From: a virus
Virus record (IMG/VR): IMGVR_UViG_3300044825_003900
Span: 1-28,759 of that record
Direction: 5' to 3' (one strand)
DNA: 28,759 nucleotides
The position numbers were made by a program, and so were the translations under genes. Positions 1,456 to 17,828 of this stretch are shown here, piece after piece. How positions within the stretch are numbered: the stretch's first letter is position 1; each line of letters begins with the position of its first letter. The notes below the pieces were generated by a model that was given only the letters and a program-made list of their open reading frames with translations, was not told the origin of the DNA and searched no databases.

Positions 1456-1829
1456 GCCCGACGTTCGGCTGGAACGCCCCGCTCATCCACCTCCCCGACC
1501 CGCGACCGCGCAACGCCGCCGTCTGGGACCAGCCCGACGAGAAGGAGCCCGAAGATGCGTCAGCACCGCGGAGTCGGGAACCGCAAGAACCGACGCAGCG
1601 TGAAGCACCGCCTCCGCGAGCAGATCCCGTCGAGGCCGCCGTTGAGCCCGCCGCCCGAGCCCACCGGCCGCACCGTCCTCGTCGAGTCGTCGCACGCCGA
1701 GCGCCGCCGGCTCGCGAAAGCGATCGCGACGTCCTCGGACTCGACGCCGATCTCTGGGGATCACTGAGCCCCAAGGCTCGCCGCAACCTGAGGGATCTCG
1801 CCCGCCGCGTCAGGAGGATTCGCTCGTGA
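1452..1829 (+). CDS. Hypothetical protein, outer member of an overlapping ORF pair
   Basis: A 125-residue frame coupled at both ends: its ATG overlaps the previous stop (ATGA) and its TGA overlaps the helicase GTG (GTGA, 1826-1829). The N-terminal 34 codons and the C-terminal 37 or so (DVLGLDADLWGSLSPKARRNL, then a basic tail) use G/C at third positions and look like protein. The middle, about 1555-1715, has poor third-position GC in this frame and yields a Pro/Arg/Ala-rich sequence, because another ORF (1555-1767) carries the strong codon bias there. It may be a real protein whose low-complexity linker tolerates an overlapping gene, or two pieces of an older arrangement. No family recognised. 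Confidence 0.5.
   Translation: MSPTFGWNAPLIHLPDPRPRNAAVWDQPDEKEPEDASAPRSREPQEPTQREAPPPRADPVEAAVEPAARAHRPHRPRRVVARRAPPARESDRDVLGLDADLWGSLSPKARRNLRDLARRVRRIRS
1555..1767 (+). CDS. Small basic protein nested in another frame
   Basis: A 70-residue ORF lying wholly inside 1452-1829 in a different frame. It has its own AAGGAG ribosome binding site at 1542-1547, 7 nt before the ATG. Between 1555 and about 1715 nearly all of its codons end in G or C, whereas the enclosing frame does not, so codon bias favours this frame here. The N-terminus is strongly basic (RKNRRSVKHRLRE), suggesting nucleic-acid binding, then a Pro-rich stretch (SRPPLSPPPEP) and an acidic-basic helix. I recognise no family. It is either a true nested gene or the sign of a compensating frameshift pair in the enclosing ORF. 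Confidence 0.5.
   Translation: MRQHRGVGNRKNRRSVKHRLREQIPSRPPLSPPPEPTGRTVLVESSHAERRRLAKAIATSSDSTPISGDH
1812..1817 (+). promoter_or_regulatory. Shine-Dalgarno AGGAGG for the helicase
   Basis: A near-perfect AGGAGG sits 8 nt before the GTG at 1826, inside the 3' end of the upstream ORF. It is one of the strongest ribosome binding sites in the window and fixes the helicase start at the GTGA overlap. Confidence 0.75.
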
Positions 1830-3373
1830 GGCCCACACTCCGCGACTACCAGCTCGAGGCGATCGAGAAGGCTGCGGGCCTTTTCGGCGAGGGGTATCGG
1901 CGCGTGCTCATCGTCGCGCCGACGGGCAGCGGGAAGACCGTGATCGCGGCCGAGATCATTCGTCGGCTGCGCGAGCGCCGGAACCGCGCGCTGTTCCTCG
2001 CGGCCGCACGCGAGCTCATCTTCCAGACCAGCAACAAGCTGAACGACATCGACGTCTCGCACGGCATCATCATGGCCGGCGTCAAGCCGCGCCTCTCCGA
2101 CGTGCAGGTTGCGAGCGTGCAGACGCTCGCGCGTCGCGAGTCCCTGCCGCCCGCCGAGCTCGTCGTCATCGACGAGGCCGACCTCGCCCGCGCCTCGACG
2201 TACGAGAAGATCCTCGCGCACTACCCGGACGCGATGATTCTCGGGCTCACCGCGACGCCGTGGCGCTCTGACGGCAAGGGCCTCGGCGAGCTATTCGAGG
2301 CCTCGGTCGTCGCTGCAACGCCCCGCAGCCTCATGGACGTCGGGCACCTCGTCGAGGCCGACGGCTACACGTTCCAGCCCCTCGACCTCGACGGAGTGAA
2401 GATTCGCGCGGGAGACTTCGACGAGCAGGAGCAGGGGCGGCGCGCGACGCAGACCGCGGATGGCAAGCGTCTCGCCGGGGACATCGTCCGGGAGTTCAAG
2501 GCGCGGGCGGTCGAGTCCATCGTTGACGGCCAGCCCGTCTATCGGCGCGCGATCGTGTTCGCGGTGAACATCGAGCACAGCGAGTTGCTCGCGCAGCAGT
2601 TCCGCGAAGCCGGCGTCCCTGCCGAGCACATCGAGGGATCGAGCGTCGACCGCGACGGAATTCTCCGCCGCCTGCGCGACGGCACGACGCGCGTCGTCAC
2701 GAACTGCAGCGTCCTCACGCGCGGCGTCGACATTCCGGCCGTCGAGGTCGTGGTCCTCGCCCGACGGACGAAGTCGCTCTCCCTGTTCCTGCAGATGATC
2801 GGCCGTGGGCTGCGCCCGTCGCCGGGGAAGACCCGCGCGCTCATCCTCGATCACGCCGCCTGCATCCTGCACAAGGGCGAGGTCGTGCACGGCCTGCCCG
2901 ACACGGAGCGCGACTACTCGCTCAAGGCGGACGCGAAGGCCCGCAGCAAGAAGTCCGAAGCGAACGACGTCGAGGGCCCGAGCATCGTGCAGTGCCGCAC
3001 GTGCTTCTTCATCGCTCCGGGCGGCGCCGAGGCCTGCCCTCGCTGCGGCGCCGTGATGAAGGTCGCACGCACGCAGATCGAGCTCGTCGGGCGCGAGGCC
3101 GAGGCGGTCGCTTTCACCGAGGTCGCGAAGATCGCCGCGTCGAACGCCGCGCAGGTCACGCACCTGCGGGACGACATCTGGACCGGGCTCGAGCGCGGGT
3201 GGAAGCCCAAGGCGCCGTGCGTGCGGTTCAAGGCCCGGTTCGGCACCTGGCCGTCGAAGGCCCTGTGCGAGCGCGCGATCGACGCGGCCGGCCTGCGCTC
3301 CGGCGAGCCGCGCGAGAAGGCGCTCGTCCTCCTCGGGCTCAAGGCTGCGGAACCTGCGGGGGTGGCTGCGTGA
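1826..3373 (+). CDS. Superfamily 2 DEAD-type DNA helicase with C-terminal zinc motif
   Basis: A 515-residue ATP-dependent helicase of the SSL2/RadD/type III restriction-like SF2 group. Visible motifs in order: Q-like region RDYQLEA (6-12), Walker A APTGSGKT (31-38), Walker B DEAD (116-119), motif III LTATP (141-145), TRGVDIP (298-304) and the arginine-finger motif QMIGRGLRP (323-331). After the second RecA domain come four cysteines spaced CxxC-x10-CxxC (390, 393, 404, 407), a zinc ribbon, and a short helical tail containing GWKPKAPCVRF. Starts at GTG after a strong AGGAGG. Its stop overlaps the GTG of the VRR-NUC gene (GTGA), and the Prim-Pol follows two genes later, so it is likely the replicative or origin-remodelling helicase, supplying the helicase domain that the Prim-Pol lacks. 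Helicase identity is firm; direction and exact role are inferred. Confidence 0.93.
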   Translation: MRPTLRDYQLEAIEKAAGLFGEGYRRVLIVAPTGSGKTVIAAEIIRRLRERRNRALFLAAARELIFQTSNKLNDIDVSHGIIMAGVKPRLSDVQVASVQTLARRESLPPAELVVIDEADLARASTYEKILAHYPDAMILGLTATPWRSDGKGLGELFEASVVAATPRSLMDVGHLVEADGYTFQPLDLDGVKIRAGDFDEQEQGRRATQTADGKRLAGDIVREFKARAVESIVDGQPVYRRAIVFAVNIEHSELLAQQFREAGVPAEHIEGSSVDRDGILRRLRDGTTRVVTNCSVLTRGVDIPAVEVVVLARRTKSLSLFLQMIGRGLRPSPGKTRALILDHAACILHKGEVVHGLPDTERDYSLKADAKARSKKSEANDVEGPSIVQCRTCFFIAPGGAEACPRCGAVMKVARTQIELVGREAEAVAFTEVAKIAASNAAQVTHLRDDIWTGLERGWKPKAPCVRFKARFGTWPSKALCERAIDAAGLRSGEPREKALVLLGLKAAEPAGVAA

Positions 3374-3705: not shown

Positions 3706-3974
3706 CCGCGCTCCCGTCCACCTCGTCGCAGATCGAGCGCCTCCGGGCCTGGGCGCGTGAATTCGCCGACGCGATCGAGTCCATTGCGGTCGAAACCAGG
3801 ACCCGCAACCCGTTCCACGACGAATCGTGGGCGCGCGCGTTCTGGACGGTCCTCGTGACGCTCGTCGTGGACGACACCTCGCTGCCGATCGACCTCACCG
3901 ACGACGAGCTACTCGCGACGTATGCGGCCTTCGCCGCCACAGAATTTCTGCTCGACCAGGCGGTGCTCGGATGA
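3702..3974 (+). CDS. Small acidic hypothetical protein
   Basis: A 90-residue predicted all-helical protein coupled to both neighbours by ATGA overlaps (3702-3705 and 3971-3974). The N-terminal half is amphipathic, the middle contains FWTVLVTLVVDD, and the C-terminal half is LTDDELLATYAAFAATEFLL. It has no cysteines and no motif I recognise. Position between a VRR-NUC nuclease and a Prim-Pol suggests an accessory replication factor, but this rests on context only. Confidence 0.7.
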   Translation: MTALPSTSSQIERLRAWAREFADAIESIAVETRTRNPFHDESWARAFWTVLVTLVVDDTSLPIDLTDDELLATYAAFAATEFLLDQAVLG

Positions 3975-5959
3975 CGACGACGGTCTCGAACGACGTGAAG
4001 GACCTCGCCGACCGCCTCGCCGCGGGCGCGATCGCGCTCGCCCAGCTCGGCTGGCTCGTGCTTCCGCTGCACTCGCTTCGGACGAGCGCCGAGGACGACG
4101 GCCGGTTCTCGTGCACCTGCGGCAACGACGCGTGCACGTCGCCCGGGAAGCACACCGTCTCGCCGTTCAAGGCCGCGCTCGAGCGCGCCACCGCGGACGT
4201 CGACACCGTGACCCGCTGGTGGAAGGACCGCTCGAAGCCCCGCAACGTCGGCGTGCGCACCGGCAAGGCGTCCGGGATCTTCGTCGTCGACGTCGACGCG
4301 GGCGGCACGGCGGGCGTCGCCGAGCTCGAGCGGCGCTTTGGCCCGCTCCCCGAGACCCTCGAGGCCGTGAGCGGCACGGGCGGCAGGCACCTCTACTTCG
4401 CCTACCCGGCCGGCGTGGTCGTTCCGACGACGCGCGAGCAGCTCGCCCCCCGCGTGAACACCATCGGCGAGGGCGACTACGTCGTCGCGCCACCGTCGCT
4501 CCACCGCACCGGCAGCAGCTACACGTGGGTGCAGCGCCCGGTCGTCCCCGCACCCGACTGGCTCGTGCGTCTCGTCGCCCCGTCTCCGGTCGCGCCCGCC
4601 GCCGAGAGGCCCGCGGCCGACCTCCTCTCCTCCGGCGACGAGACCGCGGCTCGCCCGCTCCTCGCCGAGAGCACCTGGAAGGGCAGCCCCTACGCGGCCG
4701 CCACGGGTCGCGTCACCGGAGAGAACGTGGCGCCGGCGCTCGAGGCCCTCGCGCGCGTCCTCGCCCGCGAGGAGCTCGATCCTGACGCGGTGATCGAGGC
4801 CACGGTTCGCGCGAACACGCTGCACTGCACGCCGCCCCTCTCGCGCGCCGAGGCCGAGCGTCTCGCGCACTTCGCGCTCGCGGCCGATCACGAGCGCCGA
4901 GTGGTCGCGAACGCCTCGCCTCGGGCGAAGAAGATCGATCCGGCGACGATCGAGGGTCAGGAAATCGCCGCGCGTGAACGCCGCACCGAGCGCGCCGCCG
5001 GCGGCCGCGCGCCCCACATCTCAGCGCTGAAGGCATGGACGTCTGTCTGGTTCCAGGTCGTCGACTTCGACGAGCACCGCGCCGAACTCCGCCTGAAGTG
5101 GACCGAGACCTCCGCCGACATCTCGCTGCCCGTGTTCGGCACGCCGGCGGAGGTCGAGCGCGCGCTGCTCCGCTACACCGGCTCGCTCGAGACGTTCGCC
5201 GGCCGGGCGCACGAGAAGGCCAACGGCCGCCAGTTCCTCCGCGTGCTCAAGGACCTCGCGCGCGTCGCCCCGCCCCGCAAGCGCGAGGACGCCGACGCGG
5301 CCCCGATCCAGCTCGTCCGCGCCATCCTCGCGCTGAAGGTGTGGATCCAGACCCGGGACGATCGCGGGGAGACGAAGCGGTTCCCGAAGATGCTGTCGAG
5401 CGCCGAGGGCTTCTTCGCCGACGAGGGCGTCGGCATCGTCCGCGACCGCTCGACCCAGCAGAGGCTGCTCATCGTCAGCGTGCCGGCGCTCGCGAACGGC
5501 GCGTTCGCCCGGAACGCGGAATTCCGTGGATCGACCGGCCGCGAGCTCGTGGAGCTCCTGCGCCAGGCGCCCGGGTACGCCGGCGTCCGCCGCCCGCGCG
5601 AAGCCCGCAGGGTCATCGACACCGATTTCCACGCGATCGACCTCGACCAGTTCACGGCGGTCGTGGGCCGCGTCGTGGGGCCGGTGGCCGATCTCGACTT
5701 CGACGAATCGTTCCCCCGTTCCCCCACCGCCGAAAATCCTGAGCTTTTCCCGACAGAAGCGGCCGATTCCGTGGGGGAACCACTGTTCCCCCAGCCTTCC
5801 CCCAGTTCCCCCACCGGCGACGACGACGACCGATGGCTGGGGGAACGGGGGAACGATGGGGGAACGACACTTCCCCCACAGAATCCTGCGTTTTCCTCGG
5901 AAATTGATGAGGTTTTCTACGGCCGGGGGAACGGGGGAACGAATTCGTCGCTCTCTTAG
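3971..5959 (+). CDS. Bifunctional primase-polymerase (Prim-Pol, AEP superfamily)
   Basis: A 662-residue protein with an N-terminal archaeo-eukaryotic-primase-type Prim-Pol domain. Visible signatures are the Cys/His insertion CTCGNDACTSPGKH (48-61), the catalytic D-x-D in VVDVDAGG (D107, D109), SGTGGRHLYF with H140, and GDYVVAPPS (169-176). About 250-320 is a PriCT-like helical domain (TGENVAPALEAL, then CTPPLSRAEAERL). The rest lacks a helicase domain; helicase activity is supplied by the separate SF2 gene upstream. Residues about 580-657 are low-complexity Pro/Ser then Gly/Asn, because the DNA there is packed with GTTCCCCC/GGGGGAAC repeats. The ATG at 3971 overlaps the previous stop and fits the family N-terminus; the frame is open back to 3827 but that is not needed. 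Likely the replication initiator or primase of this element. Confidence 0.9.
   Translation: MTTTVSNDVKDLADRLAAGAIALAQLGWLVLPLHSLRTSAEDDGRFSCTCGNDACTSPGKHTVSPFKAALERATADVDTVTRWWKDRSKPRNVGVRTGKASGIFVVDVDAGGTAGVAELERRFGPLPETLEAVSGTGGRHLYFAYPAGVVVPTTREQLAPRVNTIGEGDYVVAPPSLHRTGSSYTWVQRPVVPAPDWLVRLVAPSPVAPAAERPAADLLSSGDETAARPLLAESTWKGSPYAAATGRVTGENVAPALEALARVLAREELDPDAVIEATVRANTLHCTPPLSRAEAERLAHFALAADHERRVVANASPRAKKIDPATIEGQEIAARERRTERAAGGRAPHISALKAWTSVWFQVVDFDEHRAELRLKWTETSADISLPVFGTPAEVERALLRYTGSLETFAGRAHEKANGRQFLRVLKDLARVAPPRKREDADAAPIQLVRAILALKVWIQTRDDRGETKRFPKMLSSAEGFFADEGVGIVRDRSTQQRLLIVSVPALANGAFARNAEFRGSTGRELVELLRQAPGYAGVRRPREARRVIDTDFHAIDLDQFTAVVGRVVGPVADLDFDESFPRSPTAENPELFPTEAADSVGEPLFPQPSPSSPTGDDDDRWLGERGNDGGTTLPPQNPAFSSEIDEVFYGRGNGGTNSSLS
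5710..5940. repeat. Iteron-like cluster of GTTCCCCC / GGGGGAAC
   Basis: Ten perfect copies of one 8-mer occur in 231 bp. GTTCCCCC starts at 5710, 5718, 5785 and 5805; its complement GGGGGAAC starts at 5773, 5839, 5847, 5858, 5925 and 5933. Near copies CTTCCCCC lie at 5796 and 5870. Three pairs are exact head-to-tail tandems with 8-bp period (5710/5718, 5839/5847, 5925/5933). Copies fall in all three codon phases of the Prim-Pol gene, so the DNA is repeated rather than the peptide. Short A/T-rich patches separate the groups, two of them sharing AATCCTGnGnTTTTCC (about 5735 and 5882). The layout resembles replication-origin iterons or an initiator/regulator binding array; function is inferred. 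Confidence 0.85.
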
Positions 5960-5968
5960 AGAAGAGAG
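5951..5968 (+). other. Perfect inverted repeat at the Prim-Pol stop codon
   Basis: CTCTCTT (5951-5957) and AAGAGAG (5962-5968) form a perfect 7-bp stem with an AGAG loop spanning the TAG at 5957-5959. It sits just before the AGGGGAA ribosome binding site of the next gene and just after the repeat cluster. There is no U-tract, so an intrinsic terminator is unlikely; a protein-binding site or mRNA hairpin is possible. Confidence 0.5.
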
Positions 5969-5985
5969 TAGAGGGGAAATCCTGA

Positions 5986-6573
5986 ATGGGTCACAACGCC
6001 ACGAACGCCCCGCGACCGATCACCACGGCACTCGCCCAGCTGCGCCTTCCCGTCCGCGACGCGGCCGATCTCCGCTGGCTGCTCCAGGGCGACTACGAGG
6101 GCGACCTCGGGCTCAAGTCCCGGCAGGGCGACCTGCAGGACTTCCTCGAGCTCCAGACCGTTCAGGAGCGCCGCTACGCTCGCAAGCCCGTCGAGCTCGA
6201 CGAGCGCATCCTGAAGACCGCCGGCCGCCTCGGTGCACTTCGTCGTCGGTGGGCGGTGGTCGACCCCTCGCAGCAGGGCGTGCTGCAGGCCTTCTACGGC
6301 GAGACCCGCCGCGTGCTCCCGGAGTGGGGTGACCTCGGGCCCATCATCGTGCGCCTGAAGCGCGCCCACGAGCTCCACGCGCGATCCCCGGCCCGAGACC
6401 GCCCCCTCGAGTCCTGGCTCGCGAAGCTCCCGTCCCGGGGAACGCAGGTCACGGTCGCTGGCGAGCTGCGCCGCCTCGCCGAGCAGCGCCTTCAGGCCGC
6501 GAACCGGGCCTGGCTCGAGACCTGGGCGCGCGTCCGTCCGTCGCGTCGTCCCGAGGCCGCTCGTGCCGCCTGA
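5986..6573 (+). CDS. Hypothetical basic helical protein
   Basis: A 195-residue, Arg-rich, apparently all-helical protein. It starts at ATG after an AGGGGAA ribosome binding site. The segment DLRWLLQGDYEGDLGLKSR near residue 25-45 and the long charged helices toward the C-terminus do not match a family I recognise. Its place, after the replication genes and immediately before a small HTH protein and the late-gene spacer, is where many phages keep a late regulator or antiterminator, but nothing in the sequence proves that. The gene overlaps the start of the HTH gene by 11 bp. Confidence 0.7.
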   Translation: MGHNATNAPRPITTALAQLRLPVRDAADLRWLLQGDYEGDLGLKSRQGDLQDFLELQTVQERRYARKPVELDERILKTAGRLGALRRRWAVVDPSQQGVLQAFYGETRRVLPEWGDLGPIIVRLKRAHELHARSPARDRPLESWLAKLPSRGTQVTVAGELRRLAEQRLQAANRAWLETWARVRPSRRPEAARAA

Positions 6574-6802
6574 ACGACGCACGGCCACCCTGCGGGCCGC
6601 GTACACGGTCGCCGAGCTCGCCCGCGTCGGGAACGTGTCCACGAAGGTGATGCGCCGCCTCCTCGCCGACGCCGGCGTTCCGGTCGTCGACGAAGCACCG
6701 CGTCGGTCAGGCCTCGTGCGGATCTCGGACGTCCGCCGACTCTCGCCCGTCCTGTGGGACAGCCTGCAGGAGGTCGAATCCGTAACCACTGAGAATCGTT
6801 AG
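6563..6802 (+). CDS. Small helix-turn-helix protein
   Basis: A 79-residue protein starting at GTG 6563, overlapping the previous gene's end. Residues about 13-40 read as a MerR/excisionase-like winged helix-turn-helix: AAYTVAELARVGNVSTKVMRRLL, then a short wing with GVPVVDEAP and GLVRISDVRRLSPVLWDSL. DNA-binding is likely. It is the last gene before the 122-bp spacer preceding the terminase genes, making it a candidate regulator of the packaging and structural operon. It could equally be an excisionase-type accessory factor; no integrase is visible in the window to favour that. Confidence 0.7.
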   Translation: MPPERRTATLRAAYTVAELARVGNVSTKVMRRLLADAGVPVVDEAPRRSGLVRISDVRRLSPVLWDSLQEVESVTTENR

Positions 6803-6924
6803 CGTTTTCGGAATCCTATTCGTCATCTGCCTCAATCTGATCCCTCGCTGCCGGTACCTATTAAGGGCCCGCGAGGACGCGCCAAGCACGCCACGGCCGA
6901 CCGCGGCGCCCCGTCGGACGTCCC
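6803..6924 (+). promoter_or_regulatory. Spacer before the late operon, candidate promoter region
   Basis: A 122-bp non-coding stretch, one of the longest in the window, with a clear local drop in GC at about 6791-6865. TATTAA at 6859-6864 could serve as a -10 box, but I see no good -35 partner at the right distance. The downstream half is again GC-rich. It separates the HTH gene from the packaging genes, so it is the natural place for a late promoter or operator. No terminator hairpin with a U-tract is evident. Confidence 0.4.
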
Positions 6925-7380
6925 GTGGCCGAGCAGACCCGCAAAATTCCGCCCGATCTCGTGCCCGAGCTCCTCGCCCGGCACGGGCGCGGTGAGACGA
7001 GCCCGCAGCTCTCGTCGTGGCTCCTCGAGGCGCACAAGATCGAGATCACCGGGCGCTCGATCCGGCGGTTCATCGCGAACCGGGCGGACGAGCGCCGCGA
7101 GGCGGTGCGCAGCGTCGTCGCCGAGAAGCTCGCGCCCGTGGTCGACGCCGACCTCGTGGCGCTCGGTGAGATCGCGGAGCGGCTGAAGGGCTACGCCTCG
7201 AAGGCCGAAGCGCTCGGGAAGATGAGCCTGGCGATCCGGGCCTCCGAGGCCGAAGCGAACGTGCGCGTCTCCCGGCTGAAGCTCGCGGGCGCTGGCGGCG
7301 ACGACAAGCCGCCCGAGAAGTCCGCGCGCGACCGCCTGCTCGAGAAGCTCGAACGAATCGTTTCCCCCGCGGCCGCGTAG
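6925..7380 (+). CDS. Small terminase subunit, putative
   Basis: A 151-residue protein starting at GTG 6925. The N-terminal 55 residues resemble a helix-turn-helix (IPPDLVPELLARHGRGETSPQLSSWLLE then GRSIRRFIANR), as expected of a DNA-recognition subunit. The middle is a long charged helix suited to oligomerisation (REAVRSVVAEKLAPVVDADL onward) and the C-terminus ends in an RDRLLEKLERI helix that may contact the large subunit. It lies 15 bp upstream of the large terminase, the standard position. Small terminases diverge quickly, so the call depends mainly on architecture and context. Confidence 0.7.
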   Translation: MAEQTRKIPPDLVPELLARHGRGETSPQLSSWLLEAHKIEITGRSIRRFIANRADERREAVRSVVAEKLAPVVDADLVALGEIAERLKGYASKAEALGKMSLAIRASEAEANVRVSRLKLAGAGGDDKPPEKSARDRLLEKLERIVSPAAA

Positions 7381-7395: not shown

Positions 7396-8847
7396 ATGCT
7401 GCAGACCCGCACGCCGCCCCTCGTGATCCTCGCGCTGCTCGCCTCGATCGCCGTGATGCTCGTCCTCACCCGCGACGCCCAGGCATCCCCCATGGCCGAC
7501 ACCTCGGACCAGCGGTCGCTCGTCGAACGCCTCGCCGCGATGCCCCCCGACGCGCGGGCCGCCGCCCTCGCGGACTTCACCGACCACGAGCTCGCGGAGC
7601 TCGAGTACCTCTGGCCCGCGCACGCTCGCCCGAAGCAGCTCGCCCCCGCCGGCGCATGGCGCACCTGGCTCGTGATGGCCGGCCGCGGGTTCGGCAAGAC
7701 CCGCATCGGCGCCGAGTGGATCCGCGAGAAGGCCGAGGCGAACCCGCGTGGCCGGTTCGCCCTCGTCGCACGCACCGCGCCCGACGCCCGCGACGTCATG
7801 GTCGAGGGCGAGTCCGGCATCCTCGCGATCTCGCCGCCCTCGTTCCGCCCGAAGTACGAGCCGTCCAAGCGCCGCCTCACCTGGCCCAATGGCGCCGTCG
7901 CGACCACCTTCTCTGCCGACGAGCCCGACCTCCTGCGTGGCCCCCAGCACCACGCCGCGTGGGCCGACGAACTCGCCGCGTGGCGCTACGACGACGCGTG
8001 GGACCAGCTCCAGTTCGGCCTCCGCCTCGGCACCGACCCGCGCGCGGTCGTGACCACCACGCCCCGGCCCACGAAGCTCGTGCGCTCGATCCTCAGCGAC
8101 CCGACCACCGCCGTGACCCGCGGATCGATGTTCGAGAACCGGTCGAACCTGCCGCCGGCCTTCATCGAGAAGATCGTGCGGAAGTACGGTGGCACGCGCC
8201 TCGGCCGCCAGGAGATCGAGGCCGAGATGCTCGACGACGTTCCGGGCGCCCTCTGGAAGCGCGCGGACCTGGACCTCCGGCGCGTGCGGCAGGCTCCCGA
8301 GCTCCGCCGTGTCGTCGTCGCGATCGACCCGGCCGTCTCGGCCGACGAGGAATCCGACGAGACCGGCATCGTGATCGCCGGCGCCGGTACCTGCCGATGC
8401 AACCGCGGCGTTCCGGAGCTCCACGGCTTCGTGCTCGACGACCGCTCCGGCCGGAAGCACCCCGCCGAGTGGGCGAAGGACGCCGTCTCCGCGTACCAGC
8501 GCCACAAGGCCGACCGGATCGTCGCCGAGGTGAACCAGGGCGGCGACCTCGTCGAGCACACCGTCCGCACCGTCAGCAATGCGGTCTCGTACCGGGCCGT
8601 GCACGCCGCGAAGGGCAAGCGCACCCGCGCCGAGCCGGTCGCCGCCCTCTACGAGCAGGGCAAGGTCCACCACGTGGGCACCTTCGCGTCGCTCGAGGAC
8701 CAGATGGCGACGTGGGACCCGCTCCTCGACGACAAGAGCCCGGACCGCGTCGACGCGCTCGTCTACGCGCTCACCGACCTCCTCATCGAAGGCTCTGCGC
8801 CGGGCTTCGCCGGCCTGCCGGGCTCGATCTCCGCCCGACGCACGTAG
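7396..8847 (+). CDS. Large terminase subunit (COG5323/RcGTA type) with N-terminal hydrophobic extension
   Basis: A 483-residue packaging motor. The ATPase domain has Walker A GRGFGKT (96-102) and Walker B ending ADE (D191, E192); the RNase H-like nuclease domain shows AIDPAVS (D311), VAEVNQGG (E378) and DRVDALVYA (D453). Overall it matches the COG5323 group that includes gene-transfer-agent terminases, not Mu gp28. The first 32 residues are unusual: a hydrophobic run (LVILALLASIAVMLVL) then DAQASP, like a secretion signal. ATG 7396 has a CGGAG site 6 nt upstream and the extension has strong third-position GC, so it appears translated. ATG 7492 (residue 33) would give a family-typical N-terminus but lacks a convincing ribosome binding site. 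Confidence 0.93.
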   Translation: MLQTRTPPLVILALLASIAVMLVLTRDAQASPMADTSDQRSLVERLAAMPPDARAAALADFTDHELAELEYLWPAHARPKQLAPAGAWRTWLVMAGRGFGKTRIGAEWIREKAEANPRGRFALVARTAPDARDVMVEGESGILAISPPSFRPKYEPSKRRLTWPNGAVATTFSADEPDLLRGPQHHAAWADELAAWRYDDAWDQLQFGLRLGTDPRAVVTTTPRPTKLVRSILSDPTTAVTRGSMFENRSNLPPAFIEKIVRKYGGTRLGRQEIEAEMLDDVPGALWKRADLDLRRVRQAPELRRVVVAIDPAVSADEESDETGIVIAGAGTCRCNRGVPELHGFVLDDRSGRKHPAEWAKDAVSAYQRHKADRIVAEVNQGGDLVEHTVRTVSNAVSYRAVHAAKGKRTRAEPVAALYEQGKVHHVGTFASLEDQMATWDPLLDDKSPDRVDALVYALTDLLIEGSAPGFAGLPGSISARRT

Positions 8848-8874
8848 CTCGACCCAGGATCGGTCCCCGCCACC

Positions 8875-10383
8875 ATGTCGAACCCGCCGCGGCAGGAATT
8901 CCGGGACCATCCGGTCCTGTCGTCGTTCTCGGCATTCGACACGGTCGGCGCGGTTCGCGCGGCGCTGAACGAGCTCGAGGAGGGTGTCTTCCAGCGGTCG
9001 GCGCAGCTCGTCGACCGGATGGGCCGCGACGACCGGATCCGAGCGGCGCTCGAGACCCGCATTCGCGGGCTCCTCGGGCAGCCCCTCTCCTTCGAGGAGC
9101 AGGGCGACAAGCGGCGCAAGAGCGCGCTCGTGCGCGAGCTCGACGAGCGCTTCTGGACCTTCGCGCCCGAGTCCGAGGTCGGGCAGCTGCTCCGGTGGGG
9201 CCTGACGATCGGCGTCGGGCTCGCCGAGAACGTGTGGGAGCGCGGGCCCCGTCGCTGGGAGCCGCGTCTCAAGGTGTGGCACCCCGAGCACCTGCGGTGG
9301 GACTGGACGAAGCGCCGGTTCGTGGTCTCGACGCAGGACGGCGACCTCACGATCGAGCCCGGCGACCCGAAGTGGGTGGTCTTCGAACCCTTCGGCACGC
9401 GGGGCTGGATGCACGGCCTCGTCCGGGCGCTCGCGATCCCCTGGCTCGTTCGGCAGTGGGCCTACCGCGATTGGGCCCGGTACTCCGAGGTGCACGGACT
9501 GCCGATCCGCAAGGCGGTGGTGCCGTCGAACGCGTCGGACGCTGACAAGACGCGCTTCTTCGACAGCCTGAAGCGGCTCGGCTCCGAGTCGACGGTGCTC
9601 GCGCCGGCGGGCCAGACCGCGCAGGACGCGGCCTTCGACCTCGAGCTCGTTGAGGCCGAGGCGAACACGTGGGAGGGCTTCGACCGGCTCATCGGCCGGA
9701 CCGAGAGCTCGATCTCGATCGCGGTGCTCGGCCAGAACCTCACGACCGAGGTTCAGGGCGGCTCGCGCGCGGCCGCCGAGGTGCACGACCGGGTCCGCAA
9801 CGACCTGGTCGAGTCCGACGGCGAGCAGCTCGCGACGTGCCTGCACGTGCAGGTCCTCCAGCCGTGGGCCGAGTTCAACTACGGGTCGGGCGACGACGCC
9901 CCCTGGCCGTGCTGGGAGACCGAGCCGCCGATCGACACGAAGGCGCGGGCGGACACGCTCAACGCCGCGGCCGACGCACTGAACAAGTTCCGCACGGGCG
10001 GCGTGCCCGTGGATGTTCAGGAGTACGCGGACGAGTTCGAGCTCGAGCTCATCGACGGCGCACCGATCGGCGAGCCGCCGACGCCCGCACCGACTGACGC
10101 TCCGCCGAAGCAGCTCTCGCAGGGCGAGGACGATCCCGAAGGCCTGCCGTACGCCGACCGGGTCGGTGACGAGGCCGTTCGGATCGCAAGCGATGCGGTC
10201 GCGCCGGACCTCGCTGTGCTGCTGAAGGCGATCGACGAGGCCACCTCGCTCGAGCAGCTGCAGGCCGCTCTGCCGGGGATCTTCGAGTCGATGGACCCGT
10301 CGGCGCTCGCGAGCGTGAGCGCCGGGTCCGAGCAGCTCGCGGAGCTGGCGGGCCGGCGCGCGATGCGTCGTCGAAAGGCGTGA
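8875..10383 (+). CDS. Portal protein, Mu gp29-like (DUF935)
   Basis: A 502-residue protein of the DUF935 family, the Mu-type portal that forms the dodecameric ring for DNA entry and tail attachment. Recognisable stretches are DRIRAALETRIRGLLGQP near 55-75, the WGLTIGVGLAENVW segment, KVWHPEHLRWDW, VVFEPFGTRGWMHGL, and SISIAVLGQNLTTE in the C-terminal half, all in family order. Length is as expected. It follows the large terminase after 27 bp and precedes the gpF gene, matching the Mu head-gene order. The last 100 or so residues are a divergent acidic tail. It starts at ATG with an AGGATCGG site upstream. Confidence 0.92.
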   Translation: MSNPPRQEFRDHPVLSSFSAFDTVGAVRAALNELEEGVFQRSAQLVDRMGRDDRIRAALETRIRGLLGQPLSFEEQGDKRRKSALVRELDERFWTFAPESEVGQLLRWGLTIGVGLAENVWERGPRRWEPRLKVWHPEHLRWDWTKRRFVVSTQDGDLTIEPGDPKWVVFEPFGTRGWMHGLVRALAIPWLVRQWAYRDWARYSEVHGLPIRKAVVPSNASDADKTRFFDSLKRLGSESTVLAPAGQTAQDAAFDLELVEAEANTWEGFDRLIGRTESSISIAVLGQNLTTEVQGGSRAAAEVHDRVRNDLVESDGEQLATCLHVQVLQPWAEFNYGSGDDAPWPCWETEPPIDTKARADTLNAAADALNKFRTGGVPVDVQEYADEFELELIDGAPIGEPPTPAPTDAPPKQLSQGEDDPEGLPYADRVGDEAVRIASDAVAPDLAVLLKAIDEATSLEQLQAALPGIFESMDPSALASVSAGSEQLAELAGRRAMRRRKA

Positions 10384-10387
10384 CGGG

Positions 10388-11590
10388 GTGTCCACGTCGG
10401 TGCTCGCCGCCGCGCTCAGCGCTGCGGTGCGACGGCTCGCGGCCGACGGCGGGCGCGTGCCCGACCCGGCGGCAGGAACCGGCGCGCCGTTCGCCGAGGC
10501 GATCGCCTGGCATCGGTCGCGCGAGCCGCTGACCGACGAGGAGTGGAGCAAGCGCCAGGACTGGTACCGGCGGCGATCGTTCACCGTCGCGAACGTCGCG
10601 CAGCTCGACCTCGTCAGCGACGTGCACCGCGCGATCGACACCGCGATCGCGGAGGGCACGACGCTCGCGGACTTCAAGAAGGAGGTCGGCGACAAGCTCA
10701 AGGCCGCGTGGGGCGGCGACGTGAAGAACCCCGCGTGGCGCCTCGAGGTGATCTTCCGGCAGGGGACGCTCTCGGCCTACGGGGCTGGCCGCTACTACCA
10801 GGCGAGCTCGCCCGAGGTCCTGAAGCGCCGCCCGTACTGGGGCCTCGAGGTCGTCGTCGACAGCCGCACGACGAAGGAGATCTGCCGGCCGCTCGTCGGC
10901 ACGGTGCTCGCGGCGAACGATCCGTGGTGGCGGGTGCACATCCCGCCGCTCCACATGCTCTGCCGCACGGCGCTCACGACCTACACCGAGGAGCAGGCGA
11001 AGAAGCGCGGGATCACCGCGAAGCCGACGCTGAAGCCGGTGCAGGACGGGTTTGGTCTCGCGCCGGACGCGATCGAGAGCGACGGGCCGACGGCGAGCCG
11101 CTGGTACGAGGAGAAGCTGAAGCGCGCGCCGGCGAAGCTCGCCGAGGTCGCGAAGGCGAAGCAGGCGGCGGCCGAGTCAGGTGGCTCCGGCGGCGGCCGC
11201 GGTGGCCGATCGGGCGATGGCGGTGGGGACGGACCAGGGAAGCCCGGGGATCACCAAATCGCGTGGCTTCCGAAGGAGCTCGCTGAGGCCGTCGGCGCGA
11301 AGGAAGGGCCCGTGTGGCTCTCCCTGGAGACGAAGATCAAGAACCAGAAGCACCACCCCGACGTGCCGGAGGTGGCCTGGACGGCAGTCCAGCAGATGAT
11401 CGACGGCGCCGACCTGATCACCACCGACAAGCCCAAACACCTCGCGGTGCTCCACAGCGCTGACCGTTGGTACCTCGTCGTGAAGGCACTGCCCGACAAG
11501 CCGAACCACTTCGCCGTCTCACTGCGTCGTCCGAAGAGGAACGAGGCGGAGCGGATGCGGAAGCGCGGACGGGTGATTCGGGAGAAATGA
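10388..11590 (+). CDS. Mu gpF-like head morphogenesis protein fused to a C-terminal nuclease-like domain
   Basis: A 400-residue two-part protein starting at GTG, 4 bp after the portal gene. Residues about 60-205 are the phage Mu protein F (MuF) domain: VIFRQGTLSAYGAGRY, VVVDSRTTKEIC with C166, and IPPLHMLCRT with H189 and C192. A Gly-rich linker (about 265-287) follows. Residues about 290-400 form a separate domain (VWLSLETKIKNQKHHPDVP, then HLAVLHSADRWYLVVKAL and HFAVSLRR) resembling the PBECR family (phage Barnase/EndoU/ColicinE5-D/RelE-like nucleases) known to be attached to MuF proteins. Such proteins are thought to be carried in the capsid and injected. The gpF call is firm; the nuclease call is recall-based. 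Confidence 0.88.
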   Translation: MSTSVLAAALSAAVRRLAADGGRVPDPAAGTGAPFAEAIAWHRSREPLTDEEWSKRQDWYRRRSFTVANVAQLDLVSDVHRAIDTAIAEGTTLADFKKEVGDKLKAAWGGDVKNPAWRLEVIFRQGTLSAYGAGRYYQASSPEVLKRRPYWGLEVVVDSRTTKEICRPLVGTVLAANDPWWRVHIPPLHMLCRTALTTYTEEQAKKRGITAKPTLKPVQDGFGLAPDAIESDGPTASRWYEEKLKRAPAKLAEVAKAKQAAAESGGSGGGRGGRSGDGGGDGPGKPGDHQIAWLPKELAEAVGAKEGPVWLSLETKIKNQKHHPDVPEVAWTAVQQMIDGADLITTDKPKHLAVLHSADRWYLVVKALPDKPNHFAVSLRRPKRNEAERMRKRGRVIREK

Positions 11591-11694
11591 ACAACCGCTG
11601 CTGGAGGGACCCCCGAGTCTCCCTCTACTCCAACCCTCTCGGGCGGTACGGCCGGGGGATTTACCGTTTCAGCAGCGGCTACCGAGAATTCTAG
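11587..11694 (+). CDS. Small ORF of 35 codons coupled to the gpF-nuclease gene
   Basis: The ATG at 11587 overlaps the gpF stop (ATGA) and follows a GGGAG at 11579-11583. It encodes a 35-residue Arg/Tyr/Ser-rich basic peptide (starts MNNRCWRDPR, ends SSGYREF). Codon third positions are mostly G/C. The ORF coincides with a long hairpin (11595-11678), so the base pattern may instead be set by RNA structure. No family recognised. It could be a capsid-packaged basic peptide, a leader-type ORF, a small antagonist of the nuclease domain, or a chance ORF. Confidence 0.4.
   Translation: MNNRCWRDPRVSLYSNPLGRYGRGIYRFSSGYREF
11595..11678 (+). other. Long stem-loop between the gpF and protease genes
   Basis: CCGCTGCTG (11595-11603) pairs perfectly with CAGCAGCGG (11670-11678), and the stem extends inward three more pairs with G-U (GAG with TTT). 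Inside, CCCCC (11610-11614) can pair with GGGGG (11654-11658), or CCCGAG (11612-11617) with CTCGGG (11638-11643). No U-tract follows, so a standard intrinsic terminator is not supported; an RNA-processing, attenuation or structured-RNA element is possible. Confidence 0.6.
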
Positions 11695-11720
11695 GCCGCC
11701 CGCCGTCGCGAGGCAACACC

Positions 11721-12683
11721 GTGTCGCCCAACGTCGCCCTCCAGATCGAGCTCGCCGCCGGGAAGTCCCCGCCGACCGAGTTCCGCCTGTTCACGAAGGG
11801 CAACGTCGAGACCACGAAGGGCACGTTCCTCTTCGACGACCTCGCCGCGGCGACCGTGATCGCGAACGCCCAGGACTGGGGGAACGAGTTCCCGCTCGAC
11901 TACGACCACGCGATGGTGCGGTGGGACGCGCCCGCCGACGGCGGCATCGCGGCCGGCTGGTTCAAGCCCGAGCTCCGCGACGGCGAGCTGTGGGCGACGA
12001 ACGTCTCCTGGACGCCGAAGGCGACGAAGCACCTGACCGACCGCGAGTACCGCTACTGCTCGCCCACGTTCCGCGTCGACGACAACCGGCGCATCACGCA
12101 GCTCATCAACTGCGCGCTCACCAACCTGCCGGCCACGAAGCGGATGGACCCGCTCGTCGCGTCGCAGCGGCCGCACGGCCACCAGTCCGAGGCGGCTCCG
12201 CCGACCTCTCCGGAGACCACCATGTCGAAGCTCTTCCTGATCGCCCTCGGCCTGCCCGAGACCACCCCCGAGGCCGAAGCCGTCGCCCGCGCCTCCCGCA
12301 TGCGCGAACTCGTCAGCCTCACCGGCAAGGGCACCCCCGACGAGGCCTTCGGCGTCGTCCTCGCGTGGAAGAAGGCCTTCGACGAGCTGCCCGAGCTCGT
12401 GAAGAAGGTCGCTGCGCTCGAGGCGGCCGCGCAGGACCGCGACATCACGCTCGCGATCGACGAGGCCACGAAGCAGGGCAAGGTCACGCCGGCGCAGCGC
12501 GAGTCGCTCCTCGCCCTCGGCAAGTCGAACCCGACCAGCCTGAAGACCTTCCTCGACGCGGCCCCCACGCTCTCCGCCGCCGCGCCGGCCGCGAACGAGA
12601 AGCCCGCCGCGAAGCCCGCCCCGTCGCCCGACCAGGTGAAGCTCGCCCAGCAGCTCGGCGTGAAGCCCGAGGACCTCGTCTAG
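11721..12683 (+). CDS. Capsid protease, Mu gpI-like, with C-terminal scaffold
   Basis: A 320-residue head-maturation protease of the Mu gpI family. The N-terminal about 150 residues hold the protease region with FPLDYDHAMV, GGIAAGWFKPELRDGELWA, YRYCSPTF and INCALTNLPAT, in the order seen in the family. From residue 168 the sequence becomes helical and charged (VKKVAALEAAAQDRD, TPAQRESLLALGKSN) and ends in a Pro/Ala-rich tail with VKLAQQLGVKPEDL, typical of the scaffold part. It starts at GTG 11721 after CGCGAGG; the spacing is good. In Mu the same arrangement yields protease I and scaffold Z from nested starts. Confidence 0.88.
   Translation: MSPNVALQIELAAGKSPPTEFRLFTKGNVETTKGTFLFDDLAAATVIANAQDWGNEFPLDYDHAMVRWDAPADGGIAAGWFKPELRDGELWATNVSWTPKATKHLTDREYRYCSPTFRVDDNRRITQLINCALTNLPATKRMDPLVASQRPHGHQSEAAPPTSPETTMSKLFLIALGLPETTPEAEAVARASRMRELVSLTGKGTPDEAFGVVLAWKKAFDELPELVKKVAALEAAAQDRDITLAIDEATKQGKVTPAQRESLLALGKSNPTSLKTFLDAAPTLSAAAPAANEKPAAKPAPSPDQVKLAQQLGVKPEDLV
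12222..12683 (+). CDS. Nested in-frame scaffold protein, Mu gpZ-like
   Basis: An in-frame ATG at 12222 inside the protease gene is preceded by GGAG at 12212-12215 (6-nt spacer) and would give a 153-residue protein covering only the scaffold portion. This is the same layout as Mu I/Z, where scaffold is made in excess from an internal start. The scaffold would direct capsid assembly and be cleaved by the full-length protease. Sequence gives the start and ribosome binding site; production of the short form is inferred. Confidence 0.65.
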   Translation: MSKLFLIALGLPETTPEAEAVARASRMRELVSLTGKGTPDEAFGVVLAWKKAFDELPELVKKVAALEAAAQDRDITLAIDEATKQGKVTPAQRESLLALGKSNPTSLKTFLDAAPTLSAAAPAANEKPAAKPAPSPDQVKLAQQLGVKPEDLV

Positions 12684-12763
12684 CCAGACCCGGCCCGATC
12701 CAACCTCCCACACGAAACGAACGACTGGCGGCGGGCTGAAGCCTCGACCGCACGGAGACCCTC

Positions 12764-13627
12764 ATGACCGCTCTCGCCAAGAACCGCAGCACCGTCCGCG
12801 TCGGTGACCGCTCGACCGTCGCGCTCCTCGTCGTCGCCGTCGCGGCCGCGAAGGAGATCTTCCAGGGCTCGCTCGTCGCGATCGACGCCTCGGGCAACCT
12901 CGTGCCGGCCGACGACGACGCGTCGCTGCGCATCGTCGGCATGGCCGAGCAGCACGTCGACAATTTGGACGGCAGCGCCGGCGACCTCAGCTGCCGGGTG
13001 CGCACCGGCGTCTTCCAGTGGGCGAACAGCGCCGGGGTCGACGCGATCACCGCGGCCGACATCGGCAACGCCTGCTACGCGGTCGACGACCAGACGGTCG
13101 CGCGCTCGAGCGCCGGTGGGACCCGGCCCCCGGCGGGCATCGTGGTCGGCGTCGACTCGACCGACGGCGTCTCCGTGGAGACCCACTTCGGCGTCGCGGT
13201 GCCGCCGACCTTCACCGCCGTGCACCTGCTCGCGGGTGCGGACCTCTCGGCCGTCGGCAAGATCGCGGTGAAGGTGAACAGCTCCGGCAAGGTCGTCGCG
13301 GCCGGCGCGGGCGAGTTCGCGATCGGCATCCTGCAGAACGCGCCGGTCGCCGACGCGGTCGCCGTCGTCGCGGTGGGCGGCGTCGCCCTCGCGAAGGCCG
13401 GCACCGGCGGCGTCACCGCGGGCCAGCAGGTCGTGCCGGAGTCCGACGGCGAGCTCATCACCGCGATCGGCAGCTACACGAAGACCGACGACGCGGGCGC
13501 CGCCTCCGACGCGCTCAAGGGCCCGAGCATCGTCGGCACCGCGCTCTCGACGGCCACCGCTGGGAACGAGTTCCGCGTGCTCGTGAACCCGAGCGGCGCG
13601 ATCCCGACCACCGCGACCACCACGTAA
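12764..13627 (+). CDS. Putative head decoration/cement protein with two domains
   Basis: A 287-residue, Ala/Val/Gly-rich beta protein between scaffold and major capsid, the usual place for a decoration protein. The N-terminal half (FQGSLVAIDASGNLVPADDD, VGMAEQHVDN, GNACYAVDDQTVAR, AGIVVGVD) and the C-terminal half (LSAVGKIAVKVNSSGKVVAA, FAIGILQNAPV, VTAGQQVVPESDGELI) each resemble the small beta-barrel capsid-cement folds (DUF2190 and similar). They look like two related modules in tandem. CGCACGGAG upstream of the ATG gives a good ribosome binding site. Mu itself lacks a gene at this exact position. Function by position and composition. Confidence 0.7.
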   Translation: MTALAKNRSTVRVGDRSTVALLVVAVAAAKEIFQGSLVAIDASGNLVPADDDASLRIVGMAEQHVDNLDGSAGDLSCRVRTGVFQWANSAGVDAITAADIGNACYAVDDQTVARSSAGGTRPPAGIVVGVDSTDGVSVETHFGVAVPPTFTAVHLLAGADLSAVGKIAVKVNSSGKVVAAGAGEFAIGILQNAPVADAVAVVAVGGVALAKAGTGGVTAGQQVVPESDGELITAIGSYTKTDDAGAASDALKGPSIVGTALSTATAGNEFRVLVNPSGAIPTTATTT

Positions 13628-13652
13628 GACCTGACGCCCACCCACCTCTCCC

Positions 13653-13698
13653 CGTCAGCCCAGCCCCATTCAGCGTCACCGGCAAGGCCGGGCTGACG
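13653..13698 (+). other. Inverted repeat in the leader of the major capsid gene
   Basis: CGTCAGCCC (13653-13661) is perfectly complementary to GGGCTGACG (13690-13698). Inside lies a second, competing hairpin, CCGGC-AAG-GCCGG (13679-13691), which shares two bases with the outer stem. The outer stem ends just before the ribosome binding site CGCACGGAG (13697-13705). It lacks a U-tract. An mRNA-stabilising or processing hairpin for the most abundant late message is plausible. Confidence 0.55.
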
Positions 13699-13712
13699 CA
13701 CGGAGTACCGCC

Positions 13713-14618
13713 ATGCGCATCACGACCGACCTGCTCGAAAGCCTGCGGAAGGGCTTCTCGAAGCGCTTCCAGGACGCCTTCTCCGCCCAGACGCCGATGT
13801 ACGAGCAGTTCGCGAGCGTCATGCCCTCGAACACGAAGACGAACGTGCACGGGTTCATCGACCGCATCCCGAAGATGCGCGAGTGGGTCGGCGAGCGCGT
13901 CATCAAGAACTTCGCCGAGCGCAGCTACGAGATCGAGAACAAGAAGCACGAGCTCACCATCGGCGTGAAGCGCGACGACATCGAGGACGACAACCTCGGC
14001 ACCTACTCGCCCCTGTTCGACCTCATGGGCCAGCAGGCCCGCATGTACCCCGACGACCTCGTGCTCGACCTGATCGAGGCCGGCACGTCGCGCGAGTGCT
14101 ACGACGGCCAGTACTTCTTCGACACGGACCACCCGAAGAACCTCGACGACGCCGGCGCGGGCACGCAGTCGAACAACTTCACCTCGAAGGCCCTCAGCCA
14201 CGACAACCTGCAGAGCGTCCGCACCGCGATGCGCAAGCTCGTCGGCGCCGACGGCCGGACCCTCGGCGTGAACCCGACGCACCTCGTCGTCCCGCCCGCG
14301 CTCGAGAAGACGGCGCTCCAGATCCTGAACGCGGAGATGGTCGCCGAGGGCGGCGTGAGCGTGACGAACGTCCTGCGCGGCAGCCTGAAGCTGATCGTGT
14401 GGGACCGCCTCACCAGCGACACGACCTGGTACCTGCTCGACCTCTCGAAGCCGATCAAGCCGTTCGTGTTCCAGAACCGCTCCACGCCCGAATTCCAGTA
14501 CCTGACCGAGGGCAAGGACGAGAACGTCTTCATGCGCGACGAGTACCTCTACGGCATCCGGGCCCGCGGCAACGCCGGCTACGCGCTGTGGTTCCTCGCC
14601 GCCCGCGCGATCGCGTAA
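13713..14618 (+). CDS. Major capsid protein, Mu gpT-like
   Basis: A 301-residue protein matching the Mu major head subunit family (gpT, HK97-type fold). Family features in order: RKGFSKRFQDAF near the N-terminus, IPKMREWVGERVIKNF, the strongly conserved KKHELTIGVKRDDIEDD around 80-96, YDGQYFFDTDHP around 130-140, a VNPTHLVVPP region and a C-terminal ARGNAGYALWFLAARA. Length is normal. It is preceded by a CGCACGGAG ribosome binding site and a leader hairpin. The protease/scaffold upstream and gp35-like gene downstream reproduce the Mu order apart from the inserted decoration gene. Confidence 0.94.
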   Translation: MRITTDLLESLRKGFSKRFQDAFSAQTPMYEQFASVMPSNTKTNVHGFIDRIPKMREWVGERVIKNFAERSYEIENKKHELTIGVKRDDIEDDNLGTYSPLFDLMGQQARMYPDDLVLDLIEAGTSRECYDGQYFFDTDHPKNLDDAGAGTQSNNFTSKALSHDNLQSVRTAMRKLVGADGRTLGVNPTHLVVPPALEKTALQILNAEMVAEGGVSVTNVLRGSLKLIVWDRLTSDTTWYLLDLSKPIKPFVFQNRSTPEFQYLTEGKDENVFMRDEYLYGIRARGNAGYALWFLAARAIA

Positions 14619-14687
14619 GCAACCGACCACCCCTCACCGCCCTGACGGCGCGCCTCCTCGGGCGCCGCGGGGTCGCGTGGATGCACC

Positions 14688-14942
14688 ATGCCCAAGATCC
14701 CCGTCATCGTCCGCGCGGTCCCGAAGAACGGCTTCTTCCGCGCTGGCCAGCACTGGCCGAACAAGCCCCTCGAGATCGAGCTCGATCCCGACGTGATCGA
14801 GGTGCTCTCGCGCGAGCCGAAGCTCGTCGTCACCGACAACCGGCCCGAGCGCGATCGCGAGCCGGCGCCGAAGCCGCCCAAGACGCCGAAGTCCGAGCCG
14901 AAGCCCGAGCCGAAGCCCGACGGCAAGCCGAACGAGGGGTAG
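14688..14942 (+). CDS. FluMu gp35/HI1506-like protein
   Basis: An 84-residue protein whose first 50 residues resemble the Mu-like FluMu N-terminal domain (HI1506 type): IPVIVRAVPKNGFFRAGQHWPNKPL followed by LDPDVIEVLSREPKLVV. The rest is a Pro/Lys-rich repeat tail (KPPKTPKSEPKPEPKP). It sits directly after the major capsid gene, as gene 35 does in Mu. Role in head completion is not well defined. Confidence 0.75.
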   Translation: MPKIPVIVRAVPKNGFFRAGQHWPNKPLEIELDPDVIEVLSREPKLVVTDNRPERDREPAPKPPKTPKSEPKPEPKPDGKPNEG

Positions 14943-14945
14943 CCC

Positions 14946-15356
14946 GTGGCCTACGCGACGCGCACCCAACTCGGCCAGTTCGGTATCCGGGCGGCGGCGC
15001 TCGCGGGCATCCCGACCGGCGACCAGGACGCGGCGCTCGAAGCCGCGAGCGACCTCGCCGACAGCTACCTGCGCTCCCGCTTCACGCTGCCGCTCACCGT
15101 CTGGCAGGACGACCTCCGGCGTGCGGTCTGCTCGATCGCCGCGTACGACCTCCTCAGCTCGCGCGGGTACAACCCCGACGCGGGCGCCGACACAAACGTT
15201 CGGCAGCGGTACGAGGACGCGATCCGGTGGCTCGAGCGCGTCGCGGCCGGGCAGGTCACGCCCGACGTCACCGACAGCGGTTCGGGCGGTGACGAGGGCA
15301 ACGGGAGCGCCGCCGGCGCCGCACGGGTCTTCTCGAGCGAACCACGAGGCTGGTGA
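14946..15356 (+). CDS. Head-tail connector/completion protein, Mu gp36-like (DUF1320)
   Basis: A 136-residue protein starting at GTG 14946, 3 bp after the previous stop. The N-terminal YATRTQLGQFG, then DAALEAASDLADSYLRSRFTLPL, LRRAVCSIAAYDLLSSRG and YEDAIRWLERVAAGQ follow the DUF1320 pattern closely. The C-terminal 25 residues are Gly/Ser/Ala-rich with SEPRGW, also seen in this family. Mu gp36 is assigned to the neck or head completion. The stop overlaps the next gene's start (TGATG). Confidence 0.85.
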   Translation: MAYATRTQLGQFGIRAAALAGIPTGDQDAALEAASDLADSYLRSRFTLPLTVWQDDLRRAVCSIAAYDLLSSRGYNPDAGADTNVRQRYEDAIRWLERVAAGQVTPDVTDSGSGGDEGNGSAAGAARVFSSEPRGW

Positions 15357-15901
15357 TGGCAGGCGTGACGGGCGACTTCGGCGCGCTGCGCAACCTCGTC
15401 GTCACGCTCTCCGGGCTCTCCACGTTCGCCGAGGAGGGGAAACGTCGCCTCGGGGAGGAGGGCATCCGCCAGATCCACGACGAGTTCGCGAAGTCGCGCG
15501 ACCCCTACGACCGCACGTGGAAGCCGGCGTTCCGCGGCGGCCAGACGCTGCTCGACACCGGGCGTCTCCGTGCGTCGTTCTCGTCGCAGCCGACGGCCCC
15601 CGGCTTCCAGATCTCGACGAACGTGAAGTACGCCGCGATCCACCAGTACGGCGGCGTGATCCGACCGAAAAAGCCGGGCGGCGTGCTGGTCTTCAACCTG
15701 CAGACCGGGACCCGCTTCGCCGGGCGCGGTGGCCGACGGCTGAAGTCGCCCAAGGCCGTGCAGACGAAGGTCTTCGCGACGAGCGTGACGATGCCGCGTC
15801 GCCAGATCGTTCCCGAAGGCCGCCTCGGCGTGAACTGGACCGACGGCTTCATCCGGGAGAGCGAGGCGATCATGCGCGAACGCCTCGCCGGGACCCGCTG
15901 A
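15356..15901 (+). CDS. Virion morphogenesis protein, Mu gpG-like
   Basis: A 181-residue protein of the phage virion morphogenesis (gpG, Phage_tail_S) family. The family marks are visible: RDPYDRTWKPAFRGGQTLLDTGRLRAS split over about 45-75, and YAAIHQYGGVI about residue 95-105. I take ATG 15356, giving the TGATG overlap used at other junctions here; GTG 15353 would add one residue. It probably acts at the head-tail joining or tail-completion step. In Mu, gene G sits between F and I, whereas here it lies between the gp36-like gene and a gp37-like gene. Confidence 0.85.
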   Translation: MAGVTGDFGALRNLVVTLSGLSTFAEEGKRRLGEEGIRQIHDEFAKSRDPYDRTWKPAFRGGQTLLDTGRLRASFSSQPTAPGFQISTNVKYAAIHQYGGVIRPKKPGGVLVFNLQTGTRFAGRGGRRLKSPKAVQTKVFATSVTMPRRQIVPEGRLGVNWTDGFIRESEAIMRERLAGTR

Positions 15902-15902
15902 C

Positions 15903-16367
15903 GTGGCGATCTCGTCGATTCTGAGCGCCGTCGAGGACCAGCTCGACGCGTGGAACAGCGTCTACGGCGACTCGATCCTCATCGGCTCCGAGCACGTCTA
16001 CGCCCACGACAAGCCTCCTCGAATCGTCGCGGTCCTTCGCGGCGGGCCGGGCCGGCCGGTCGTGCACGGCGGCGCGAATCCGAAGCCGGTCTGGACCCGC
16101 TCGGTCGAGGTCGAGTTCCACGTGTGGGGCGCCGATCCCGACGGCGCTGAGTCCCTCCTGAACGACCTCATCGCCGCGATCCACGCTGTTGCCCACGGGT
16201 CGGCGCAGTTCGGCGGCGAGGAGTGGCCCGAGCTCAACGGCGAGTTCCTCGCCCTGGGCCGGGTCGTCATCACGCGGGCGACCTTCCTCGTGCCCGTGAC
16301 CCGACCGCAGCACCGCACCACCACGGTCGAAACGGTCGTGCAGTCCGCGACCGTCGACTCCGACTGA
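15903..16367 (+). CDS. Tail terminator/completion-like protein
   Basis: A 154-residue protein starting at GTG right after the gpG stop. It has the length and alpha/beta look of tail terminator proteins placed before the sheath gene: an N-terminal helix (SILSAVEDQLDAW), a strand pair with PRIVAVLRGGPGR, SVEVEFHVWGADPDGAESLLNDL, and a final strand VVITRATFLVPVTRP. It corresponds in position to Mu gp37. No catalytic motif. The name is based on position and fold impression. Confidence 0.65.
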   Translation: MAISSILSAVEDQLDAWNSVYGDSILIGSEHVYAHDKPPRIVAVLRGGPGRPVVHGGANPKPVWTRSVEVEFHVWGADPDGAESLLNDLIAAIHAVAHGSAQFGGEEWPELNGEFLALGRVVITRATFLVPVTRPQHRTTTVETVVQSATVDSD

Positions 16368-16394
16368 CCCTCCCCCTCCCAAGAGGCAATCCCC

Positions 16395-17777: not shown

Positions 17778-17798
17778 CCGCCGCTCCCGGCCACCCCC

Positions 17799-17828
17799 TG
17801 CCGCGCGGCACCGTCGCGCCCTCGGTGA
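17799..17828 (+). promoter_or_regulatory. Palindrome and leader motif before the tail tube gene
   Basis: TGCCGCGCGGCA (17799-17810) is a perfect 12-bp palindrome. It is followed by GTCGCGCCCTCGGTGA (17813-17828), whose GGTGA lies just ahead of the ATG at 17832. Nearly the same motif recurs ahead of the tail chaperone gene at 18322-18338, so the two leaders appear related. Confidence 0.5.

Follow-up and report, generated by a model that had tools for sequence, protein, structure and literature searches.

A dense 8-mer array within the 3′ end of a phage Prim-Pol gene is a probable iteron replication origin

The last part of a phage gene for a primase-polymerase (Prim-Pol) carries one 8-mer over and over, in both orientations, which raises the question of what these repeats do there. 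We analysed the window in which they lie, the whole 28,759-bp IMG/VR virus record IMGVR_UViG_3300044825_003900. The initial annotation had reported ten perfect copies of the 8-mer in both orientations at 5710–5940, and a recount confirmed them: exact copies of GTTCCCCC/GGGGGAAC start at 5710, 5718, 5785 and 5805 in the plus orientation and at 5773, 5839, 5847, 5858, 5925 and 5933 in the minus orientation. Three pairs are tandems with an 8-bp period, and each of the three codon phases is represented among the copies, both as previously described. The spacing is otherwise irregular. Two copies of CTTCCCCC, at 5796 and 5870, differ from the repeat by one mismatch and bring the array, which has no strand of its own, to 12 sites.

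This clustering is unique in the window. There are 12 exact copies of GTTCCCCC/GGGGGAAC in the whole record, ten of them in the array and two elsewhere, whereas 100 dinucleotide shuffles of the record gave a mean of 1.07 copies of GTTCCCCC and a maximum of 4. The density outside the array predicts 0.19 sites with up to one mismatch for a stretch as long as the array. For every other 8-mer, a 250-bp stretch contains at most 4 copies anywhere in the record, as against 10 for the array, and the same ceiling of 4 held for any 8-mer in 20 Markov-simulated genomes. An equal density of the 8-mer elsewhere, which would have spoken against a special site, did not occur. Short repeats are thus clustered far above chance, as is expected of an iteron origin. 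The copies show weak helical phasing that varies with the assumed period (p ~0.003 at the best of five periods, with tandem copies that are not independent), and we therefore left it out as evidence for the function of the array.

A second word is interleaved with the repeats. AATCCTG occurs in the whole record only at 5735, 5882 and 5978, that is, between and just after the array copies, and each time it lies in an A/T-rich stretch. The first block spans 5735–5752. The second, at 5882–5899, falls inside 5866–5930, which is among the lowest-GC stretches of the record and is a candidate unwinding element. The third stretch, at 5941–5985, carries its AATCCTG past the stop codon of the Prim-Pol gene and may also be part of an origin. 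The 50-bp windows at 5866–5881 and 5931–5956 are among the lowest in GC of this GC-rich record. The alternation of A/T-rich patches with repeat groups noted in the initial annotation therefore stands, but its claim of an identical shared block does not, as the second copy is one base shorter than AATCCTGnGnTTTTCC. An A/T-rich region between or next to the repeats, another feature of iteron origins, is thus present as judged by base composition. The annotation had also suggested looking for a GC-skew inflection at the array; such a change would support an iteron origin without defining it, but skew over the record has no inflection at 5.7–5.9 kb, and a local minimum lies near 9 kb. The remaining deep minimum of the 50-bp GC windows, at 6771–6811, falls outside the array. 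The lowest-GC stretch of the record (0.44), at 6771–6816 around the end of the 79-aa gene, is outside the array and could be a promoter or an unwinding site.

The gene that contains the array (3971–5959, plus strand) encodes a 662-aa protein with an N-terminal Prim-Pol domain at residues 20–197 (E=8.6e-39), which makes it a candidate initiator and gives the array the link to a replication gene (initiator, primase or helicase) that iteron origins have. Beyond this domain the protein has no significant family match; no helicase domain was recognisable in it, and no DNA-binding domain was recognised in its C-terminus. Third-position GC (GC3) is 0.94 in the body of the gene and 0.65 in the array part. 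Given that the lowest GC3 over 912 85-codon windows of 14 genes is 0.81, the usual codon constraint does not govern the array segment. Directly after the array lies the gene for a 195-aa protein of no known family (5986–6573, plus strand), an alternative candidate for the protein that binds the repeats. AlphaFold predictions from single sequences gave a mean pLDDT of 43 for the Prim-Pol C-terminus and 39 for the 195-aa protein, and their Foldseek matches are meaningless. The surrounding cluster includes a DEAD/DEAH-type helicase (1826–3373, plus strand), a VRR-NUC-like nuclease and the 195-aa and 79-aa proteins, followed by terminase and Mu-like head genes. The head genes, for a Mu-like portal, gpF, protease and gpT (7396–20542), co-occur with a Prim-Pol module, and the scanned proteins of the fragment included no recognisable Mu transposase. 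Rfam and tRNA scans returned nothing relevant.

We scanned viral contigs for arrays of the same word, defined as three copies in mixed orientation at short distances and divided into two orientation classes. The two classes contained 20 and 10 loci for GTTCCCCC, as compared with 3 and 4 for the reversed word, which has the same composition and was the sole control word; 30 against 7 hits, not all of them independent and set against one control, are too few to claim a special role for GTTCCCC. Because these loci were chosen by the word, their common word proves nothing; their common placement was unselected. In most loci with the true word, the array lies at a replication gene. In Pseudomonas prophages (L040, L031, L037 and others) and in L181 it directly follows a DUF927 gene, and a scan for tandem words found a smaller array 3′ of DUF927 in L016. 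Elsewhere it is downstream of a Prim-Pol-VapE gene (L177), downstream of a Prim-Pol gene with its first base 2 bp past the stop (L185), beside DUF3987 (L039), close to the 3′ end of a DnaB-like gene (L179) and, in a bacterial contig, downstream of VapE (L057). Arrays within coding sequence recur as well: GTTCCCC repeats lie within O-like initiator genes (L180, L183/L205), in similar genes with no Pfam assignment (L178/L206, adjoining DnaB; L182/L184; L210) and, in L207, between the two domains of a Prim-Pol/DUF3987 gene. Several of the arrays are neighbours of DnaB. At least one control-word array (L212) is inside an initiator-like gene, a DnaD-like helicase loader by PHROGs, and intragenic arrays of many words therefore exist. 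Four mixed-orientation GTTCCCCC arrays have no assignable replication gene (L034, 1673–1707; L186, 645–691; L208, 1035–1154; L209, 898–1165). Same-strand intergenic GTTCCCCC repeats in Streptomyces DNA (L075) were set aside, that locus not being replication-related.

Literature searches combining this 8-mer with iterons turned up, in titles and abstracts, no phage origin made of this repeat; the one phage-origin paper among the hits concerns lambdoid O proteins (PMC7466680). That a single 8-mer recurs in modules that are unrelated is intriguing, although the loci were chosen by the word, and it raises the question of what recognises it. GTTCCCC(C) might be an origin word shared by unrelated modules (Prim-Pol, VapE, DUF927, DUF3987 and O-like/DnaB) from several bacterial phyla and read by a common small DNA-binding domain or a host factor, an idea that we put forward tentatively and think rather doubtful.

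The initial annotation had proposed that the Prim-Pol genes of related phages be compared for a different repeat unit at the same place. Searches of viral contigs with the Prim-Pol protein, its C-terminus and the helicase found no close relative of the phage; such repeat units were found in more distant relatives. We collected 19 Prim-Pol loci by protein similarity and checked each for any dense 7- or 8-mer array. Seven of them have a dense array 3′ of the Prim-Pol gene, mostly built from another word, and five of these seven arrays begin where the Prim-Pol gene or primase operon ends, or close to that point. The remaining 12 have no exact dense array, and either the placement of arrays 3′ of Prim-Pol is not universal or the repeats there are imperfect. 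In the Rhizobium phages 16-3 (L196, 6982–7350) and RHph_X2_25 (L201, 6824–7190), CGTGACA forms arrays in both orientations, with 11 exact 7-mers per 250 bp, from the 3′ end of the Prim-Pol gene. These share their position and mixed orientation with the array described here, but are noncoding and use their own word. They are candidate origins, and a limited literature search found no paper calling the CGTGACA array of the Rhizobium phages an origin. The other three of the five are in a Pseudonocardia plasmid (GCCCCGC), a Nitriliruptoraceae genome (CCTCACG) and a Mycobacterium genome (CGTTCCCC), the last beginning ~90 bp past the Prim-Pol stop. Two further arrays, of CGTCACC (L221) and ATGACAG (L223), lie ~1–2 kb farther downstream of Prim-Pol. 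Since six bacterial genomes of the set were reached via a tandem GTTCCCCC somewhere in each, the Mycobacterium word cannot count as independent evidence; the other genomes have words that differ from the query. A different word in each relative is what would be expected of iterons specific to their initiator.

Several known systems share parts of this arrangement. In the record of the phage and satellite P4, the annotated crr lies just 3′ of the alpha gene and consists of two 120-bp repeats, each containing five type 1 repeats, 8-mers that occur in both orientations. As in P4, the sites described here are 8-mers in both orientations on the 3′ side of a replication gene (in P4, that of the primase-helicase alpha), and the P4 type 1 word TGTTCACC has GTTC.CC in common with GTTCCCCC. 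However, crr lies outside the alpha gene and is required in cis, and a separate ori has more of the type 1 repeats. The locus does not belong to the alpha/crr class, as its protein carries a Prim-Pol domain, with no helicase domain recognised in it, and alpha is a different protein; on this comparison the likeness is one of analogy, not homology. A Thermaerobacter plasmid (L202, 2801–3050) has five copies of GTTCACA, which resembles P4 TGTTCACC, upstream of a P4-family primase. In SaPI and, as a putative origin, in SCCmec (Cch2) (PMC7581432), as well as at SGI1 oriV (PMC7433901), an iteron origin immediately follows the initiator gene or operon; these differ from the phage array in their initiators, their iteron words and their intergenic position. 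In lambda, the iterons of ori lie within the gene for the replication protein O (PMC5043065). Those are 19-bp inverted repeats bound by O dimers, whereas here short 8-mers occupy the last part of a Prim-Pol gene; with a Prim-Pol and not an O-like gene as its bearer, the array falls outside the lambda O type. In the plasmid pRN1, a region needed in cis closely follows the primase-polymerase gene orf904, but that element is a stem-loop, and its authors found no iterons (PMC4234260).

The comparative evidence favours a replication origin, and other functions have to be weighed against it. The repeats could be an operator through which a phage regulator, such as the 79-aa or 195-aa protein, controls downstream transcription with no origin involved. 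The array is just upstream of the genes for these two proteins, repeats in both orientations are compatible with a repressor or an activator, and the four comparable arrays in L034, L186, L208 and L209 lack a tie to a replication gene. However, a scan for sigma-70-type promoters found no promoter-like site in 5400–7000, twelve sites across 230 bp within a gene are many for an operator, and arrays of this kind track the replication gene across phages, on its 3′ side or inside it; we consider an operator unlikely. Very unlikely, in our estimate, is a site for partition, packaging or another structural role, or a site at which a host factor binds, close to the genes for replication and terminase. 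The terminase genes are within 1.5 kb downstream, and centromere-like sites are repeat arrays too, but no parA/parB-like gene was recognised among the scanned proteins of the window, and related arrays follow primase or helicase genes with mostly another word in each phage, which is ill-suited to a common host factor.

The initial annotation had offered a G-quadruplex as an alternative on the strength of three G5 runs within 24 nt (5839–5862), and these G-runs might act in that way or as another DNA structure. This alternative is weakened: there is no canonical four-tract G-quadruplex in the array on either strand, the copies are in mixed orientations, and at the corresponding place several relatives have arrays of words without G-runs. 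We regard it as highly improbable. Hardly any weight attaches, in our view, to a functionless expansion of a chance or low-complexity repeat in a disordered protein tail, even though the Prim-Pol tail has no domain match and the Streptomyces locus has GTTCCCCC repeats, on one strand, in intergenic DNA. Against such an expansion are the two orientations, the irregular spacing, the use of all codon phases, the second private word interleaved with the first and the recurrence of arrays at replication genes in other phages.

We conclude that the 3′ end of the Prim-Pol gene (~5710–5985) is likely a replication origin, with the 8-mers serving as iterons for an initiator of the phage, most likely the C-terminal part of Prim-Pol or a partner encoded by a neighbouring gene. 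The array would probably be a genuine iteron origin that lies inside a coding region, a known type of origin in a new phage. We infer the following course of initiation. The phage-encoded initiator, whether the Prim-Pol C-terminal part or a partner from an adjacent gene, would bind the 8-mers; the DNA would come under strain as the ~12 sites, which face both ways, are bound cooperatively; the strain would open the A/T-rich spacers that bear AATCCTG; and a helicase, together with the primase activity of Prim-Pol itself, would begin synthesis at the opened spacers.

An origin at this position would give a phage that combines, within the fragment, Mu-like head genes with a Prim-Pol module a testable site of replication. 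The comparisons also suggest a rule, namely a dense array of a short word at the 3′ end of, or within, a primase, helicase or initiator gene, which can help to find origins in unannotated phages and plasmids. By its portal protein (39.5%), the nearest relative of the phage is Myxococcus phage Mx4. Its p24 gene, of no known family, contains ten copies of CGTCACGC within 250 bp (L191, 5680–5980), a candidate for another intragenic origin or regulatory array.
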